A stretch of DNA of 64,000 nt from Bacteroidota bacterium (GTDB lineage Bacteria; Bacteroidota; Bacteroidia; Palsa-965): NCBI GenBank assembly GCA_006218065.1, contig VBWE01000015.1, forward strand, positions 124,001 through 188,000, read 5' to 3'. A model generated the notes under the pieces. That model saw only the letters and a list, made by a program, of their open reading frames with translations, ran no database searches and was not told the DNA's origin. Below are positions 4,704 to 54,368 of this stretch, one piece after another. Position 1 is the stretch's first letter. Every line of letters begins with the position of its first letter. A program made the translations under genes and the position numbers.

Positions 4704-6380
4704 TTACGAAATTTTAGAATTAACTGTTTTCAGAATTTCCGCTTCTTCGGCCTGCGCTTTTTGTTCGATGACTGCGCCGCGGGCGATGATATCCGCCGCA
4801 AACTTTTTATCGTCGAGACCGGCGGCGTTTATTTTCACGTTGAGGTATGCACCCATCACGGCAGCCCGCGCGGCCAGCGCACCCACACCCGCATCGGAAA
4901 CCGAATTGGGATTGCCTTTTTCAGCCATCGCGCGTGCAATCTCCAGCGTTGCAGCCGAAGCTTCCATCACGCGGAAAGGGACTTCGGTGGCGTACCGGGT
5001 AGCTTCCTGGATGGCCGCAGTCCGGGCTTTTTTCTCTTCGTCGTTCCCTTTCGGAAGTCCGAATGCCGCCATGATCCGGTTGAAAGCGCGTGTATCTTCA
5101 TCCACAAGCCGCAGCAGTTGGTCTTTCAGTTGCTGGCCTTTTTCCGCCCAGTCCGAAAACGCTTTCCAGCGATCGTCCCAGCCGCGCTTGTGCGAAGACA
5201 GGTTGGCGACCATCGTGCCCAGCGCCGCACCCAGCGCACCCATATACGCCGAAATGGAACCGCCGCCGGGAGCCGGGCTTTCGCTGGCTGTTTCGTCGGC
5301 GAAAGCAGCCAGCGACATGCTCACCAGTTTGTTGTCCGACTTGTCGCGCAGCAGGTATTCGATCACGCGTTCTTCCGGTTTGAAGGGTGCCAGTTCCTCG
5401 AGCCCGAGTGATTTGACGGCGATTTTGATCAGCTCGCTTTCCGAAACGCCGGTCGAACGTTCCTGCTTTTCGAGAAAATATTTCCCGGCATCGAGCAGGC
5501 ATTGCAGCGGCAGCAGGCCGACGAGTTCGGAGCCTGTAACGCGCATCCCGCGTGCTTCCGCACGTTTGCACACTTCATCAAAGGCGATATGAACGGGCGT
5601 AACCCGCGTATTGGTGAGGTTCATCGAAATCTGCGCGATGCCGTATTCTTCAATGTACCAGCCGATGGCTTTCACGCTTTTCAGCGAGCCGGGGATAACG
5701 ACCGGGTTGCCGTTCGCATCCTTCACCGGGTTTCCTTTGGCGTCCTTTTCTGTGCGTCCGGCTTCACGCACGTCGAAAGCGATGGCATTCGCGCGGCGGG
5801 TGCTGGTGGTGTTCAGGTTGATATTGTAAGCGATCAGGAAATCGCGCGCACCGATCACGGTAGCTCCGCGTTTCGCGTCGAATTCGGCCGGACCGAAATC
5901 GGGTTTCCATTCGGGCAATTTAATTTTCTTGAAAAATCCTTCGTATTCGCCGGCGCGGATGACAGAAAGGTTATTGCGTTTTTGATCGGCCTGGGCCGCT
6001 TCGTACAGGTAAACGGGAATGCCGAGTTCTTTGCCGACACGCTCACCGAGTTTTTGCGCGTACTTCGCCGTTTCTTCCATGCTGATGCCGGCAACGGGAA
6101 TGAGCGGGCAAACGTCGGTAGCGCCCATGCGCGGGTGCTCGCCTTTATGTTTACTCATATCGATGAGTTCGCCGGCGGTGCGGATGGCGCGGAAAGCGGC
6201 TTCCACAACGGCTTCGGGTTCACCGACGAATGTAACCACCGTGCGGTTGGTTGCTTTGCCCGGATCAACATTGAGCAGGCTGATACCTTCCACGGATTCG
6301 ATACTGTCCGTGATCTGTTTAATGATCTGCATATTCTGCCCTTCGGAAAAGTTGGGCACGCATTCGATGAGACGTTTCAT
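4704..6380 (-). CDS. ftcD: Bifunctional glutamate formimidoyltransferase / formimidoyltetrahydrofolate cyclodeaminase
   Basis: A 558-residue fusion enzyme of histidine breakdown. The N-terminal domain (about 1-310, starting MKRLIECVPNFSEGQ, with HKGEHPRMGATDVCPLIPV) transfers the formimino group from N-formimino-glutamate to tetrahydrofolate. The C-terminal domain (about 350-558, with SPAPGGGSISAYMGALGAAL) releases ammonia to give methenyl-tetrahydrofolate. The start at 6380 is favoured because conservation begins exactly there; an upstream extension of 40 codons is unlike the family. HutI, the preceding step, lies 650 bp away on the same strand. HutH and HutU are not in the window. Confidence 0.96.
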   Translation of the reverse strand: MKRLIECVPNFSEGQNMQIIKQITDSIESVEGISLLNVDPGKATNRTVVTFVGEPEAVVEAAFRAIRTAGELIDMSKHKGEHPRMGATDVCPLIPVAGISMEETAKYAQKLGERVGKELGIPVYLYEAAQADQKRNNLSVIRAGEYEGFFKKIKLPEWKPDFGPAEFDAKRGATVIGARDFLIAYNINLNTTSTRRANAIAFDVREAGRTEKDAKGNPVKDANGNPVVIPGSLKSVKAIGWYIEEYGIAQISMNLTNTRVTPVHIAFDEVCKRAEARGMRVTGSELVGLLPLQCLLDAGKYFLEKQERSTGVSESELIKIAVKSLGLEELAPFKPEERVIEYLLRDKSDNKLVSMSLAAFADETASESPAPGGGSISAYMGALGAALGTMVANLSSHKRGWDDRWKAFSDWAEKGQQLKDQLLRLVDEDTRAFNRIMAAFGLPKGNDEEKKARTAAIQEATRYATEVPFRVMEASAATLEIARAMAEKGNPNSVSDAGVGALAARAAVMGAYLNVKINAAGLDDKKFAADIIARGAVIEQKAQAEEAEILKTVNSKIS

Positions 6381-46759: not shown

Positions 46760-46866
46760 ACGATTTTCGATTTCGGATTGCCGATTTTCTATTGCGCACA
46801 AACCAACCGCACCCGGATGCATCGCGAACAAAAATCGAAAATCGGCAATCCGAAATCGAAAATCGT
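46760..46866. repeat. Long hairpin with perfect 30-bp arms
   Basis: Arms 46760-46789 and 46837-46866 are exact inverse complements, built from ATCGAAAATCGG-like words (right arm begins GAAAATCGGCAATCCG). The loop is 47 bp. It occupies the gap between two minus-strand genes and has no T-tract. Confidence 0.75.
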
Positions 46867-47716: not shown

Positions 47717-47800
47717 TAGCAGCGTCTTTGGATCAAAAAAATGGTGTTAAAAATTGAAAAACTTGTGAACAGTACTTGACTTTCTCCTTTTGATGGGTTT

Positions 47801-47817
47801 ACTTTGTAGCACAAAGT
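47801..47817. promoter_or_regulatory. Operator 1: ACTTTG-N5-CAAAGT
   Basis: ACTTTG (47801-47806) and CAAAGT (47812-47817) form a perfect dyad with a TAGCA spacer, ending 8 bp before ATG 47826. A second copy with the same dyad and the same 8-bp spacing precedes the gene at 48832. The nearby winged-helix regulator at 48491 is the obvious candidate to bind both. Confidence 0.7.
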
Positions 47818-47825
47818 GCTTTTAA

Positions 47826-48494
47826 ATGACTGAACAAAACGAACACCTGTCGGCACTGACCGAGATCCGCGACCTGATGAACCGCTCGTCGCGATTCCTT
47901 TCACTAAGCGGCATATCCGGTATCTGTGCGGGCGTGCTTGCGCTGGCAGGGGCGGGCGTGGCCTGGTTCTGGATGCGCGACCTGTTTTTCAAATTTCCGC
48001 TTTTCGTGGATGCTGATTATTTGATTCCCGGAAATTTTTTCAGCGCCCCGGCTGTTGATTTCTATACTTTTTTTGTGCTGGACGCCGGTTCGGTTTTGTT
48101 GCTTTCCCTTTTGTGCGGCTGGTTTTTCTCGCGACGCAAAGCGAAGAAGCAAAACATGCCTTTCTGGGACCAGACAGCCTGGCGGGCATTGCTCAACCTG
48201 TTTATCCCGCTGGCTGCGGGCGGCTTATTTTGCCTGGCCCTGATGCTGCACGGGGTGATCGGGCTGATTGCGCCGGCGACTTTGATTTTCTACGGACTGG
48301 CCCTGCTCAATGCGAGTAAATACACGTTGAACGATGTCCGTTATCTCGGCGTTTCACAGATTGCACTCGGACTGGCGGCCTGCATGTTTGTGGGCTACGG
48401 TTTGTTTTTCTGGGCGCTCGGATTTGGTGTGCTGCACATTGTTTACGGTGCCGTGATGTGGTGGAAATACGAACGGGGAGCGGGAGGAGAATGA
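47826..48494 (+). CDS. Multi-span membrane protein of the operator-controlled cluster
   Basis: A 222-residue protein with a short cytoplasmic head (TEQNEHLSALTEIRDLMNRSSRF) and about five hydrophobic spans (for example ISGICAGVLALAGAGVAWFW, VLDAGSVLLLSLLCGWFF, LFIPLAAGGLFCLAL and IALGLAACMFVGYGLFFWALG). No family recognised with certainty. Its stop overlaps the start of the winged-helix regulator (ATGA), so the two are translationally coupled; in such pairs the membrane protein and regulator commonly form one functional unit. Confidence 0.82.
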   Translation: MTEQNEHLSALTEIRDLMNRSSRFLSLSGISGICAGVLALAGAGVAWFWMRDLFFKFPLFVDADYLIPGNFFSAPAVDFYTFFVLDAGSVLLLSLLCGWFFSRRKAKKQNMPFWDQTAWRALLNLFIPLAAGGLFCLALMLHGVIGLIAPATLIFYGLALLNASKYTLNDVRYLGVSQIALGLAACMFVGYGLFFWALGFGVLHIVYGAVMWWKYERGAGGE

Positions 48495-48790
48495 ACGAAT
48501 ACTTACTTAAACTCAATAAAGCTTTTGAAAACCGTGCGCGGTTAGGCATTATGTCTATCCTGATGGTGAACGACAGCGTGGAATTCACGCACATGAAAGA
48601 GCTGCTCCAGGTAACCGACGGAAACCTGGCCAGCCATATTACGGCCCTGGAAAAAGCCGGCTACGTGGAAGTCACCAAACAGTTCATCGGCAAAAAACCG
48701 AATACGACGTATTCCGTAACACGCAGCGGCCGAAAGGCTTTCACAGAACATCTCGATGCGCTGGAAAAGCTGCTGAAAAGTCAAAAGTGA
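48491..48790 (+). CDS. Winged-helix transcriptional regulator
   Basis: A 99-residue dimeric-type regulator: LNKAFENRARLGIMSILMVNDSVEFTHMKELLQVTDGNLASHITALEKAGYVEV is the helix-turn-helix, KQFIGKKPNTTYSVTRSGRKAF the wing, and a final helix (HLDALEKLLKS) the likely dimer contact. It belongs to the MarR/ArsR-like single-domain wHTH group common in Bacteroidota. ATG 48491 follows GGAGGAG closely, an unusually good ribosome site for this phylum, and overlaps the previous stop. It probably binds the palindromes at 47801 and 48807. Confidence 0.88.
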   Translation: MNEYLLKLNKAFENRARLGIMSILMVNDSVEFTHMKELLQVTDGNLASHITALEKAGYVEVTKQFIGKKPNTTYSVTRSGRKAFTEHLDALEKLLKSQK

Positions 48791-48806
48791 TTTTTTTTGC
48801 CCTTAT

Positions 48807-48823
48807 ACTTTGAAATACAAAGT
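48807..48823. promoter_or_regulatory. Operator 2: ACTTTG-N5-CAAAGT
   Basis: ACTTTG (48807-48812) and CAAAGT (48818-48823) with an AAATA spacer, 8 bp before ATG 48832. Flanks also match operator 1: both continue GCTTT-x-AAATGAC into the start codon region. Confidence 0.7.
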
Positions 48824-48831
48824 GCTTTGAA

Positions 48832-49392
48832 ATGACCATAATAGCGACATTTTTACTCCTGCTGCTCATCGTCGGGCGATGTTCCTGGGAATTAATTTTC
48901 CTTGAATCGCCGGGCTTTGAGCGCAGTACGCAGCAGGTAAACAGCGGATCGCCGCTGGTGCGCGGACTCGCATTGCTTTCGGGACTCGTTTCACTGGTGC
49001 TTTTGCTGGAAGCGGCGCCGGTGAAGGTCCGGGTGGGTGCGGTGATTTTGCTCGCAGTAACGCAAACCGCGTATTGGTTTTCGAGCCTCGGGAAAGCGAA
49101 CTGGGGCAGGGGACTGAATTTTCTTTTCCGCCTGCTGATTTCCGCCGGCATCGTTTTTCATTTTCTGCTCGCCTGGAAAATGCGCGCCGATCTGAAAAAC
49201 GATACGGTACTCGTGGCCGGGATCGTGGTACTCGTGCCGGTAATCTCGGGCATGCTCCTGCTCATCGAACTGCTTTTTAATGCGGCGCTTTCACACGGAC
49301 GGAAATTCAGCTGGAAATTTTTGGCGGAAGCGGGAACTGTTGCCGCGGTGACTTTCCTGCTTTTTCAACTTCAGATTATTCATCACGCATGA
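48832..49392 (+). CDS. Membrane protein under the second operator
   Basis: A 186-residue protein with about five hydrophobic spans (IIATFLLLLLIVGRCSWELIF, LALLSGLVSLVLLLEA, VILLAVTQTAYWF, LLISAGIVFHFLLAW, VVLVPVISGMLLLIELLF). No recognised family. Start and operator spacing match the gene at 47826, indicating joint control. It begins the second, longer run of membrane genes. Confidence 0.8.
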   Translation: MTIIATFLLLLLIVGRCSWELIFLESPGFERSTQQVNSGSPLVRGLALLSGLVSLVLLLEAAPVKVRVGAVILLAVTQTAYWFSSLGKANWGRGLNFLFRLLISAGIVFHFLLAWKMRADLKNDTVLVAGIVVLVPVISGMLLLIELLFNAALSHGRKFSWKFLAEAGTVAAVTFLLFQLQIIHHA

Positions 49393-49682
49393 AAACGTTT
49401 AACCCCGGTTTTATGGTCCCGTGCGGGAATGCAGCCTGCCCTATCGATTGCGATGGTTGTGGTGCAACAGGCAGCGCTGCTTCCCCGGGACCAGGACCGG
49501 GAAAGTTTATGACGATCGCTTCAGAAAAAGAGCGATTTCAAAATATGCCACGGAGGCACGGAGAACACAGAGAACCACAGAGACTCTGTGTTCCTCCGTG
49601 TTCTCCGTGCCTCCGTGTTTTTTTTCTGGAGTATTCCCAATCGAATCATCCAAATCCCTTTTCCCATGATAACGAACTTTGA
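49389..49682 (+). CDS. Doubtful small Cys-rich protein, possibly disrupted by a repeat
   Basis: An ATGA overlap with the preceding stop suggests a coupled gene starting MKTFNPGFMVPCGNAACPIDCDGCGATG. The first ~45 codons look plausible with four cysteines; after that the frame passes through the CGGAGGCACGGAG hairpin repeat and loses protein character. It may be the remnant of a gene truncated by repeat insertion, or not a gene. Confidence 0.25.
   Translation: MKTFNPGFMVPCGNAACPIDCDGCGATGSAASPGPGPGKFMTIASEKERFQNMPRRHGEHREPQRLCVPPCSPCLRVFFLEYSQSNHPNPFSHDNEL
49549..49617. repeat. Hairpin repeat built of CGGAGGCACGGAG words
   Basis: Arms 49549-49582 and 49584-49617 are inverse copies over 34 positions with 3 mismatches and a 1-base loop. 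Each arm contains the word CACGGAG repeatedly. A T-run follows on plus, so it might also terminate transcription. Confidence 0.75.
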
Positions 49683-50184
49683 AACGAACGAAGCGCTTGC
49701 AGAAAAAAAACTACTCCGCCGCATCCGCCGCTGGCTGGCTGCGTTTATGATCCTGCTCATCATCAGCGGCATTACAGCATCGCCCGTACTCGCCGAATTG
49801 AGTTTCGCGATGCAGCATAAAAACTGGTTCCCGGAATTTATGCAGGAATGGCTGGTGAATATTTACACAGCCCTGCAGGATATCGATCAGGAACATCCGT
49901 ACGTGTTTTACGCTTTCGACTGGCTGGCTTTCGCGCACGTGATCATCGCGCTGTTTTTCATCGGCGTGTATAAAAATCCCGTGCAGAACGCCTGGGTGCT
50001 GCGTACCGGCATGATCGCCTGCATCGCCATTATCCCGCTCGCGTTTATCGCCGGCGGCATCCGCGAAATTCCCTGGTTCTGGCGATTGATCGATTGTTCC
50101 TTCGGCGTGTTCGGCATTATCCCGCTGCTGCTGGTGGAACGATTGACCGGGAAATTAAAAATCATAAAAACCGCAAACGCATGA
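49666..50184 (+). CDS. Membrane protein with four spans
   Basis: A 172-residue protein: a cytoplasmic head ending LLRRIRRW, span 1 (AAFMILLIISGITASPVLA), a ~50-residue loop, span 2 (LAFAHVIIALFFIGVY), span 3 (MIACIAIIPLAFIAGGI) and span 4 (LIDCSFGVFGIIPLLLV). No family name can be given. It ends with an ATGA overlap to the next gene. Confidence 0.8.
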   Translation: MITNFETNEALAEKKLLRRIRRWLAAFMILLIISGITASPVLAELSFAMQHKNWFPEFMQEWLVNIYTALQDIDQEHPYVFYAFDWLAFAHVIIALFFIGVYKNPVQNAWVLRTGMIACIAIIPLAFIAGGIREIPWFWRLIDCSFGVFGIIPLLLVERLTGKLKIIKTANA

Positions 50185-50609: not shown

Positions 50610-52481
50610 ATGAAACGCAACGACTGGGTTTTCCTGATCTCCGTAGCCGTGTACAGCCTGCTGTTTTACAAGCAGCAGCCCGGCCTGAATGTGCTGCTTT
50701 TTAATATCGTTTTAACGGCCGGCGCTTTGCTGATGAATCCCGGCCTGGTAAAAAAGCGAAACTGGCTGCTCGCTGCCGCCGGAAGTTTATTCACCGCAGG
50801 CTGCGTATTTTTTTACGGCAACACGCTTTCGGTGATCGCCAATATCGTTTCGCTGTTTATGCTCAGCGCGATGAGCATGTACCCGCAAACGTCGGTCATC
50901 ATCGGTATTTTTCTTTCGTTCTGTTCGCAGGGAGCGTCGTATGTTTTTATGATCATCGACTCTATCGAACGCCGCCGCCGTACCGTGGCATCCGGTGAAA
51001 CCCGGCCCTCGCGCGGCCGCCGGTTCCTGCTTTCGGTCATCGTGCTGCTCGTGGTCGTCATTTTCTTTCTGATGTACCGTTCGTCGAACGTGCTTTTCTA
51101 CGAGTTCACGAAAAACATCAACCTCGATTTTATTTCCATCGGCTGGTGCGCGTTTACCCTGCTCGGCGCTTTGTTCGTTTACGGGTTCTATTATAATCGC
51201 GGGCCTGCGCTGGTTGCCGAATGGGAATCGTCGCTCGGTGAAAAACTGCAGCCGCCCGTTCCCGAAAAACCGGGCTTCTTCGACAAACTGATGAGCCTGG
51301 CCAACGAACGTTATTCCGGCATCCTCCTGCTCGTGCTGCTCAACCTGCTCCTGCTTTTTGTGAACGGCGTGGATATCGCATTCATGGCTGGCGATCAGCA
51401 TCTTCCCGAAGGGGTAACGTTTACCGAATACCTGCACCAGGGCGTGGGCATGCTTATCACGTCTATCATCAGCGCCATGATTATCATTATTTATTATTTC
51501 CGCGGGCGCATGAATTTCGACGGGAAAACCGGGCTGCTCCGTTTGCTCGCGATCGCGTGGATCGTGCAGAATGCATTCATGCTTTTTTCCACCGCCTGCC
51601 GCAACGGTGCGTACATCGAAGAATTCGGCCTGACTTATAAACGGATCGGCGTGTTCGTATACCTGCTGCTCACGCTCATCGGCCTGGCCGTAGTCGCGAT
51701 AAAAGTCGGGAGCAAAAAAACGAACGCGTATATGTTCCGCGTCAACGGCTGGCTTTTTTATGCGGTACTGGCCATCAGTCCTTCCGTGAACTGGGACCGG
51801 ATCATTACGCAATACAACCTGACGCGGGCCAGTCACCCGGATACTTCGTACATCACGGATCTTTCGTACGCCAATTACGAAGAACTGCTCCTCGTCAGCC
51901 GCATGGGTTTGCTCGAATCGTACATCAACAGCGCGGGCGACAGTTGGGGCAGGGGATACCGCGTCAGTTACGGGCGAAATTTTTCACGCGAGCTGTATTA
52001 TTTCATGTACCGGCAGAAATACGCCAGGTGGCAATCGCTGAGTCTGAACAAGCAGATGGTGTATGCCAGGCTGCTGGAACAAAAAACGCCTGCGGGAAAA
52101 GATACCTCGCTCGATCTCTCGTACCGCGATGTGGAGCAACTGCCGTATTTTAACCTCTTCGCAAATACGGAATACATTCACGCCGCGGGAAATAAAATCA
52201 CTTCGCTCGGCGAAATTCAGAAATACAGCAAACTGAAATCGCTTTTCCTCGCGGACAACCGGCTTGAATCTGTCGCAGATATCGCCAGGCTTCCGGAACT
52301 CTCCACGCTCGACCTGCGCGGCAACCCGGTTAAGGATTACAAGCCGCTTTACGGGATGAAGAGTCTCCGGGAAGTTTACGTTTCCATCCGCAACCTGGAC
52401 GATCTCGATGCGCTGGAGAAAAATCTTCCGGGCGCCAGAATCATGAACAGTCCCGATTACAGCAACGCATCTTTTTTCTGA
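50610..52481 (+). CDS. DUF4173/DUF4153-type membrane protein with C-terminal leucine-rich repeats
   Basis: A 623-residue protein. Residues 1-400 contain about ten hydrophobic spans; RYSGILLLVLLNLLLLFVNGVDIAF, FTEYLHQGVGMLITSIISAMII and NGWLFYAVLAISPSVNWDRII match my memory of the DUF4173 pattern. Residues ~500-610 are leucine-rich repeats: LDLSYRDVEQLPYF, NKITSLGEIQKYSKLKSLFL, NRLESVADIARLPELSTLDLRGNPV, forming a curved binding surface. The fusion suggests a membrane protein with an extracytoplasmic recognition arm. It is the largest gene of the cluster. Confidence 0.82.
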   Translation: MKRNDWVFLISVAVYSLLFYKQQPGLNVLLFNIVLTAGALLMNPGLVKKRNWLLAAAGSLFTAGCVFFYGNTLSVIANIVSLFMLSAMSMYPQTSVIIGIFLSFCSQGASYVFMIIDSIERRRRTVASGETRPSRGRRFLLSVIVLLVVVIFFLMYRSSNVLFYEFTKNINLDFISIGWCAFTLLGALFVYGFYYNRGPALVAEWESSLGEKLQPPVPEKPGFFDKLMSLANERYSGILLLVLLNLLLLFVNGVDIAFMAGDQHLPEGVTFTEYLHQGVGMLITSIISAMIIIIYYFRGRMNFDGKTGLLRLLAIAWIVQNAFMLFSTACRNGAYIEEFGLTYKRIGVFVYLLLTLIGLAVVAIKVGSKKTNAYMFRVNGWLFYAVLAISPSVNWDRIITQYNLTRASHPDTSYITDLSYANYEELLLVSRMGLLESYINSAGDSWGRGYRVSYGRNFSRELYYFMYRQKYARWQSLSLNKQMVYARLLEQKTPAGKDTSLDLSYRDVEQLPYFNLFANTEYIHAAGNKITSLGEIQKYSKLKSLFLADNRLESVADIARLPELSTLDLRGNPVKDYKPLYGMKSLREVYVSIRNLDDLDALEKNLPGARIMNSPDYSNASFF

Positions 52482-52495
52482 ACACGTACGAACAA

Positions 52496-53263
52496 ATGCA
52501 TCACACGATGAAACCCGATTATCCGATCATCAAAACACTGCTCTGGCTTACGCTTTTCAGTATAGCCATGGGATACCTGGAAACAGCCGTGGTTGTTTAC
52601 CTGCGCAAATTGTATTTCGCCGACGGATTCCGTTTTCCGCTTTCGCCGGTTTCGCCCGATATCGCGGTAACCGAATTCTGGCGCGAAGCGTGTACCATCA
52701 TCATGCTGCTGGGTGCGGGCATTATGGCGGGCAGGAACGGCGCGCAGAAATTCGTTTTCTTTCTTTATTGCTTCGCCGTCTGGGATATTTTCTACTACGT
52801 GTTTCTCAAAGTCCTGCTCGGCTGGCCCGAATCGCTGTTCACCTGGGACGTACTTTTCCTGATTCCCGTTCCCTGGGTCGGACCTGTGCTTGCGCCCTGT
52901 ATCGTTGCGGTTACGATGATTTTGTTCACGCTGGTCACTGTTCGTTTGCAAAGCCAGGGACGAAGCGGCGTTACAAACTGGACGGAACGCGGGCTGCTGC
53001 TGACGGGTGTCGCGGTCATCCTCGTTTCGTTTATGTGGGATTATTTTCAGTTTGTAGCGAACAACCCGGAAGCGAAAGGCATGTGGACATTATCCAGCGA
53101 TCAGAACCTGTTCAGCGAAGCCCGCAATTACATGCCGGAGCATTTCAACTGGCTGCTTTTCGGCTGCGGTGAATTTATCCTGCTCGGCGCGATCACACTT
53201 TTTTTCATGCGCCAGGTGAAACAGCCGCAAACCGTACGAACGGCAGCAGGAGTCCGGCATTAA
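52496..53263 (+). CDS. Membrane protein of unknown family
   Basis: A 255-residue protein with about six hydrophobic spans (LLWLTLFSIAMGYLETAVVVYL, ACTIIMLLGAGIMAG, VFFLYCFAVWDIFYYVFLKVLLG, LIPVPWVGPVLAPCIVAVTMILFTLV, GLLLTGVAVILVSFMWDYFQFV, WLLFGCGEFILLGAITLFFM). Aromatic and Asp residues in span 3 and span 5 are notable. The start is ATG 52496 or 52508. It lies 14 bp after the DUF4173 gene. Confidence 0.75.
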   Translation: MHHTMKPDYPIIKTLLWLTLFSIAMGYLETAVVVYLRKLYFADGFRFPLSPVSPDIAVTEFWREACTIIMLLGAGIMAGRNGAQKFVFFLYCFAVWDIFYYVFLKVLLGWPESLFTWDVLFLIPVPWVGPVLAPCIVAVTMILFTLVTVRLQSQGRSGVTNWTERGLLLTGVAVILVSFMWDYFQFVANNPEAKGMWTLSSDQNLFSEARNYMPEHFNWLLFGCGEFILLGAITLFFMRQVKQPQTVRTAAGVRH

Positions 53264-53302: not shown

Positions 53303-53986
53303 ATGAAAAACATACTGACAGGCGCGCGAAGTTTTTTTAGCGTAAAAAGCGATCAGCACACATTAGCGATTCTCGGCATTTCTTCCGCTTTTTGCATCGC
53401 GGTAATTATTGCCCGGTGTTTTGTTTATGACAGTCACCGCTATCTTTTCCTCGGCTGGAACCTTTTCCTGGCCTGGGTTCCGGTCTGGTTCACTTTTGCG
53501 CTGCATACAAAATCCATCGGGCGTTACGCGGAAGCGACGAAGCTTGCCTGTCTCGGTCTCTGGTTTTTGTTTTTGCCCAACGCGCCGTATGTACTCACCG
53601 ACCTTTTTCACCTGGCGGCGATCCCCGGCGTTCCGATATGGCTGGACTGGCTGATATTGCTGAGCTGCGGCTGGACCGGGCTCCTGCTGGGGTTCTGGTC
53701 GATGATCCGGGTGCGCAAATGGATACTGCCGAAACTGAGTCCCGGCCTGGGCATGCTGTTCGTTCCGGTCACGCTGCTGGCCTGTGCGTATGGGGTTTAC
53801 CTTGGCCGTTTCGAACGGTGGAACAGTTGGGATATCGTATCGCATCCTTTCGCGATCGGGCTGGATATCCTGCAGTCGCTGGTGCGGCCGCGCGCGCTGG
53901 GCATGACGGCTTTGTTTTCGTTATTTTTAGCTTTTGCCTGGTGGTGCTTTTCGCCGCTTTTTCAAAATGATGCACATGACCGATAA
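53303..53986 (+). CDS. DUF1361 membrane protein
   Basis: A 227-residue protein with six to seven spans. Diagnostic: LFLGWNLFLAWVPVWF, LWFLFLPNAPYVLTDLFHL and VYLGRFERWNSWDIVSHP, all hallmark stretches of DUF1361. The family's function is unknown. Its end overlaps the start of the diacylglycerol kinase gene by about 20 bp. Confidence 0.9.
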   Translation: MKNILTGARSFFSVKSDQHTLAILGISSAFCIAVIIARCFVYDSHRYLFLGWNLFLAWVPVWFTFALHTKSIGRYAEATKLACLGLWFLFLPNAPYVLTDLFHLAAIPGVPIWLDWLILLSCGWTGLLLGFWSMIRVRKWILPKLSPGLGMLFVPVTLLACAYGVYLGRFERWNSWDIVSHPFAIGLDILQSLVRPRALGMTALFSLFLAFAWWCFSPLFQNDAHDR

Positions 53987-54368
53987 AAACAATAAACCGT
54001 TTTCCCTGCGGGCCCGGCTGCGAAGCTTCGGTTATGCGTTCAAAGGAATCGCCGTTTTTATGAAAACGCAGCACAATGCCTGGATTCACCTGCTTGCCGC
54101 ATGTGCCGCGGTATTCCTCGGCTTCTGGTTACAGATCAGTACGGTCGAATGGTGCGTAGTTATACTTTGTATCGGTTTGGTTTTTGCCGCAGAAGCATTC
54201 AATACTGCCATCGAATGGCTGACTGACCTGGTATCGCCGGGCAAAAATGAAAAGGCCGGAAAAGTGAAAGATTTGGCTGCGGGAGCGGTGCTTTTGATCT
54301 CCCTCGCTTCAGCCGCCTGCGGAATCATCATTTTCCTGCCGAAACTCATCGATAAATTGTCAACATAA
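53967..54368 (+). CDS. dgkA: Diacylglycerol kinase family protein
   Basis: A ~133-residue membrane enzyme with three spans; characteristic EAFNTAIEWLTDLVSPGKNEKAGKVKDLAAGAVLL contains the catalytic Glu and the E-x(8)-D region. DgkA-type proteins phosphorylate diacylglycerol or undecaprenol; in many non-proteobacteria the substrate is undecaprenol, used in cell-wall recycling. Starts at 53967, 53970 and 53976 are all possible; the head begins around MTDKNNKPFSLRARLRSFGYAFKGI. Confidence 0.92.
   Translation: MMHMTDKNNKPFSLRARLRSFGYAFKGIAVFMKTQHNAWIHLLAACAAVFLGFWLQISTVEWCVVILCIGLVFAAEAFNTAIEWLTDLVSPGKNEKAGKVKDLAAGAVLLISLASAACGIIIFLPKLIDKLST

Follow-up and report, generated by a model that had tools for sequence, protein, structure and literature searches.

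A three-half-site operator and a winged-helix/membrane-protein gene pair recurring across Bacteroidota: a putative autoregulated switch for cell-envelope genes

The locus and its paired sites

The window analysed here, a stretch of 64,000 nucleotides, contains a compact locus in which two copies of a palindromic site flank a pair of overlapping genes, all on the forward strand. The first gene (47826–48494) encodes a 222-residue membrane protein, here called TM1, and the second (48491–48790) a 99-residue winged-helix protein, wHTH. A sequence-only reading of this DNA had placed a winged-helix gene between the two sites, translationally coupled to the membrane-protein gene. The start codon of wHTH overlaps the TM1 stop codon in ATGA at 48491, and wHTH is an HTH_34 protein by profile and fold. 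The PF13601 profile matches residues 17–95 over positions 2–80 of its 80 (108.7 bits against a cut-off of 27; 1.6e-31). An AlphaFold2 model (pLDDT 89.5) has 1ub9 as its closest fold match, with a TM-score of 0.86 and 31% identity, followed by Rv3488 (PDB 5zhc/5zi8). The scores for MarR (21.2 against 24.6 bits), PadR (21.8 against 27), HTH_5 (17 against 22) and HTH_metalloreg (25.4 against 55) fall below their cut-offs, and by these cut-offs wHTH belongs to HTH_34 and lies outside the MarR, PadR and ArsR families. The protein has no cysteine.

The AlphaFold2 model of TM1 (pLDDT 80) consists of six long helices, which we take to be membrane helices, following an N-terminal helix. No Pfam family was found for TM1, and in a fold search against the PDB the best match did not fall below an E value of 0.7. 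Among its most conserved parts is an N-terminal block, EIRxxMxRSSRFxSLSGLSG.

The sequence-only reading described the sites as two copies of the dyad ACTTTG-N5-CAAAGT, with the end of each copy 8 bp from a following ATG. This is correct for both the copy upstream of TM1 (the U site, 47801–47817, ATG at 47826) and the copy downstream of wHTH (the D site, 48807–48823, ATG at 48832), and the spacers do differ, being TAGCA in the former and AAATA in the latter. The matching GCTTT flank that had been remarked on is also real, and it turns out to be a third conserved half-site. An N-CTTT block follows the dyad directly, always on the gene side, and is 93–98% conserved in an alignment of all sites; in the window its CTTT lies at 47819–47822 for copy 1 and, by the same alignment and pattern, at 48825–48828 for copy 2. 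The proposal of a dyad conserved in sequence and position with a variable spacer therefore stands, but the operator has three half-sites rather than two. As read from the alignment, the predicted full operator is the 22-bp sequence ACTTTG-N5-CAAAGT-N-CTTT. A repeat search recovers the two copies as a 31-nt direct repeat of 87% identity.

Within the 5.26-Mb genome from which the window comes, the exact dyad occurs twice, both times at the wHTH locus, and a control pattern with the sequence reversed has no exact match. The dyad is thus not scattered at random positions, as the sequence-only reading had allowed that it might be. When one mismatch is tolerated, the dyad gives 11 sites and the reversed control 21, so that there is no excess over background at this stringency. 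The 22-bp pattern is more discriminating, giving the same two matches and no others even at up to two mismatches.

Distribution of the operator and of the gene pair

Both sites recur at orthologous loci. Four genomes of the same family encode a close orthologue of wHTH (66–75% identity), and all of them have the dyad at that locus. Among 80 named loci from other genomes, which include Flavobacterium, Chryseobacterium, Elizabethkingia, Hymenobacter, Pontibacter, Siphonobacter, Butyricimonas and Ignavibacteria MAGs, the upstream copy is present with at most one mismatch in every case. A second copy is found just after the wHTH gene at 76 of 81 loci, the window included. The near regions of these genes contain 129 exact dyads and no exact reversed control. 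Outside the class, 20 of 20 loci have the upstream dyad and most have a second one. Conservation upstream of orthologues, on which the earlier proposal had been made to depend, thus extends across the phylum, and the dyad and its position are kept upstream of the regulator's own operon while the spacer varies. Many of the 20 loci from other classes carry a lineage-specific right arm, AAAAGT. In one group of these, mostly from a single family (L270–L285), AAAAGT replaces CAAAGT at the U site and the D site mostly retains CAAAGT, possibly reflecting divergence of the operator between the two copies. At another locus (L011) a distant HTH_34 paralogue has a related dyad, ATTTTG-N5-CAAAAT, 659 bp upstream; this is a hint that paralogues use a variant operator, or it could be a chance match.

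The 80 named loci had been chosen by best protein match, and unbiased samples were added for this reason. In an even sample of 295 genomes of the class, wHTH (PF13601, presence called at E ≤ 1e-30) was found in 92. The 22-bp operator occurs in 80 of these 92 genomes and in none of the 203 others, and is therefore restricted to regulator-bearing genomes; the reversed 22-bp pattern has no match in all 295. The exact site is absent from 12 of the 92, with near-matches in at least one of them (G003). Of the 149 22-bp sites listed, 111 lie within 2 kb of wHTH. The dyad without CTTT proved too noisy for use as a genome-wide probe. Exact dyads average 2.04 per genome with wHTH (control 0.66) and 0.32 per genome without it (control 0.49); those that lack CTTT lie away from wHTH loci, the copy in G003 being the one exception among those inspected, and mostly look like chance matches in coding sequence.

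TM1 shows the same linkage to the regulator. It adjoins wHTH at all 81 named loci and is present in all 92 wHTH genomes of the class sample, with one copy of each gene per genome; outside these genomes a single weak match (1.1e-11) was found in one genome. As would be looked for in a sensor pair, the membrane partner is always co-encoded with the regulator. Judged by this distribution, TM1 is an obligate, co-inherited partner of wHTH and not merely its target, and since wHTH is never found without TM1, the latter is a putative supplier of the signal. Co-inheritance and adjacency together suggest TM1 as the best candidate for signal input. The cis-encoded switch is probably old in the phylum Bacteroidota, and its age is part of the explanation developed below.

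Genes behind the operator

Downstream of the D site in the window, a row of genes on its strand encodes a 186-residue membrane protein with no Pfam match (48832–49392), a 172-residue membrane protein (49666–50184), a DUF4153 membrane protein with C-terminal LRR (50610–52481), a 255-residue membrane protein (52496–53263), a DUF1361 membrane protein (53303–53986; PF07099, 1.8e-39) and a DgkA-type diacylglycerol/undecaprenol kinase (53967–54368; PF01219, 5.2e-34). Between the 186- and 172-residue protein genes lies a near-perfect inverted repeat (49549–49617; CACGGAGGCACGGAGAACACAGAG...) with 34-nt arms and a 1-nt loop, possibly an interspersed repeat element or a terminator, and because of it the row can be regarded only putatively as one transcript. 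A second inverted repeat (46760–46866; ACGATTTTCGATTTCGGATTGCCGATTTTC), with 34-nt arms 39 nt apart, lies between genes upstream of the circuit; comparison with a plasmid collection found no match to it.

Several of these families recur behind the operator elsewhere. The commonest is DUF4153, found downstream at 59 of 81 loci and at four separately fetched operator sites. Coq4-like proteins occur at 19 loci and four off-locus sites, and a small membrane protein family at 13 loci and eight off-locus sites. The family of the 172-residue protein is downstream of the circuit at 11 loci and of one off-locus operator, that of the 255-residue protein recurs at 11 loci, and a CreD-containing family is found near D sites at six; DUF1361 and DgkA are also among the putative target families. 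The 38 listed sites more than 2 kb from wHTH were fetched, and the gene that follows on the side of the third half-site was read; many of these genes belong to families of the wHTH locus. The operator travels with the same families when they lie at other loci, which speaks well for its acting on these genes.

Individual sites extend this picture. At L214–L217, in four genomes of one family, the operator directly precedes Poly_export and Wzz/tyrosine-kinase genes. At L199, L210 and L191 it precedes MSEP-CTERM/exosortase K genes and VIT genes of the XrtN system, which suggests that the exosortase systems of some Bacteroidota are part of the predicted operator regulon. At L211 two full operators lie 99 bp apart on the reverse strand (approximately 1203 and 1302) before a single DUF4153-like operon situated away from the wHTH locus.

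Promoter geometry and the proposed mechanism

In Flavobacterium, the –7 box of sigma-A promoters is TAnnTTTG and occupies –12 to –5 (PMC9723704). From the site logo and this consensus, a putative –7 box, TTACTTTG, is recognised at 47799–47806, overlapping the left half-site of copy 1, and a putative –33 element, TTGAC, lies 20 bp before it (47776–47780), in keeping with the spacing of TTG in relatives. The U sites of most relatives read TAACTTTG (TAnnTTTG); the consensus is exact in 61 of 81 U sites, and TTG is found 17–23 bp before the box in 71 of 81, where shuffled sequences predict 8.1. The predicted transcription start in the window is at about 47811. Since the left half-site shares the TTTG of the –7 box, the operator covers about –10 to +12, and thus overlaps the predicted promoter of the regulator. 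As far as position can show, the arrangement is that of a repressor site, and with the first operator built into a sigma-A promoter, autorepression would be the likeliest mode of action. We infer that wHTH regulates its own operon.

The D sites are built differently. TTG at the spacing of the U register is present in one of 76, so that a sigma-A promoter in that register is unsupported, and TAnnTTTG is found in 15 of 76. In its place a tract of at least six T residues lies at a fixed distance from the operator in 72 of 76 D sites; in the window this is T8 (48791–48798) followed by G, the T8-G tract (48791–48799) occupying –16 to –8 before copy 2. The tract was considered as a terminator of the TM1-wHTH transcript and rejected: hairpins are not enriched before it (mean z –0.08), and its distance to the dyad is fixed even at displaced D sites. 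As the sigma-A geometry is absent from D sites, repression may take another form at copy 2, or activation may act there. The same wHTH and operator could accordingly serve mainly in activation or in a dual role, with copy 1 repressed and D-type promoters activated, the T-tract and third half-site helping to recruit or position RNA polymerase. The missing –33/–7 pair, the retention of the operator with its T-tract in fixed phase, and a distance from dyad to start codon some 10 bp greater than that of U sites all favour such a role, but TTG at promoter spacing is present in 14 of the 38 off-locus sites, and we regard it as rather unlikely.

The identity of the protein that binds the dyad cannot be read from sequence alone, and the site could in principle belong to another, unlinked transcription factor for which the wHTH gene is one target among others. 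We consider this very improbable, given that the 22-bp site is confined to wHTH genomes and mostly lies beside wHTH, which is the sole DNA-binding gene of the conserved module. It is slightly less probable still, and indeed very doubtful, that the repeats serve in the core promoter, or as a leader RNA hairpin, and not as a protein operator. The left arm at U sites does coincide with the –7 box, and the dyad can pair as RNA, with a mean of –3.4 kcal/mol; however, such a hairpin is weak, conservation of the right arm and of the third half-site matches that of the –7 portion, and dyads are present at D sites, which lack the promoter pair. Moreover, with the predicted start located within the dyad, a transcript from a U site would contain only part of the hairpin. 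A chance repeat is refuted, to the point of being negligible, by the confinement of both exact genome copies to this locus and by conservation across the phylum.

The recurrence of sites, gene pair and layout throughout the phylum makes this almost certainly a real, apparently undescribed switch for cell-envelope genes. We propose that wHTH, probably as a dimer, binds the 22-bp operator; that at copy 1 the bound protein would block RNA polymerase and so repress its own TM1-wHTH operon; that this protein would also control membrane and envelope genes, through copy 2 and, in relatives, through a small number of sites at other loci; and that TM1 may supply the signal, for example by holding wHTH at the membrane or releasing it. 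Taken as a whole, a wHTH that binds the operator, represses its own operon and controls envelope genes, with TM1 as the candidate input and envelope stress as the putative theme, is in our judgement likely. More tentatively, as a possibility that we put forward with reserve, the six-helix TM1 may be a sensor of membrane or envelope state that holds or releases an HTH_34 repressor in an undescribed, phylum-wide two-protein signalling system, whose three-half-site operator would govern exosortase sorting and polysaccharide export as well as genes for envelope maintenance (DUF4153, CreD, DgkA and DUF1361).

Small winged-helix autorepressors of the PadR family control the operon in which they are encoded and a small number of neighbours, and one-component repressors of the MarR and ArsR types use dyad operators that overlap the promoter, with adjoining targets. 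By analogy, the circuit would work as an autoregulated winged-helix repressor with neighbouring targets, which is a well-known kind. wHTH shares its fold with PadR proteins such as Rv3488 but scores below the PadR cut-off and has a different operator; it differs from MarR/ArsR repressors, whose cut-offs it also fails to reach, in its obligate membrane partner and three-half-site operator, and from ArsR-type metal or sulfide sensors in having no cysteine. Nearly the whole of wHTH matches the HTH_34 profile and the fold of its solved member PH1061 (PDB 1ub9), but the Bacteroidota proteins form a subfamily with their own membrane partner and operator. As with anti-sigma factors and other small regulators kept at the membrane, regulator and membrane protein are encoded as an inseparable pair; the likeness is one of analogy only, the TM1-wHTH pair being known from its genes and TM1 resembling no solved structure. 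The circuit differs from known repressors of this kind in three respects: its operator has three half-sites, one of them fused to the –7 box; a membrane partner is obligate; and it is extremely conserved in the phylum. In the open-access literature we found no operator, partner or regulon for HTH_34, PF13601 or PH1061, and no description of the circuit (HTH_34, DUF4153, MSEP-CTERM, the motif); as the search covered open-access literature only, novelty is unproven.

Outside sugar utilisation and the SOS response, operators are known for few Bacteroidota transcription factors. Here about a third of the sampled genomes reveal the site together with the putative regulator, its partner and its targets, and the genetically tractable Flavobacterium johnsoniae, whose wHTH orthologue lies at 5986–6273 of locus L158, is among the organisms that bear the circuit. 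Through the circuit, the control of exopolysaccharide export, of exosortase substrates and of DUF4153- and CreD-type envelope genes would become directly accessible, and a function is proposed for TM1, a conserved family of membrane proteins that lacks a Pfam entry.
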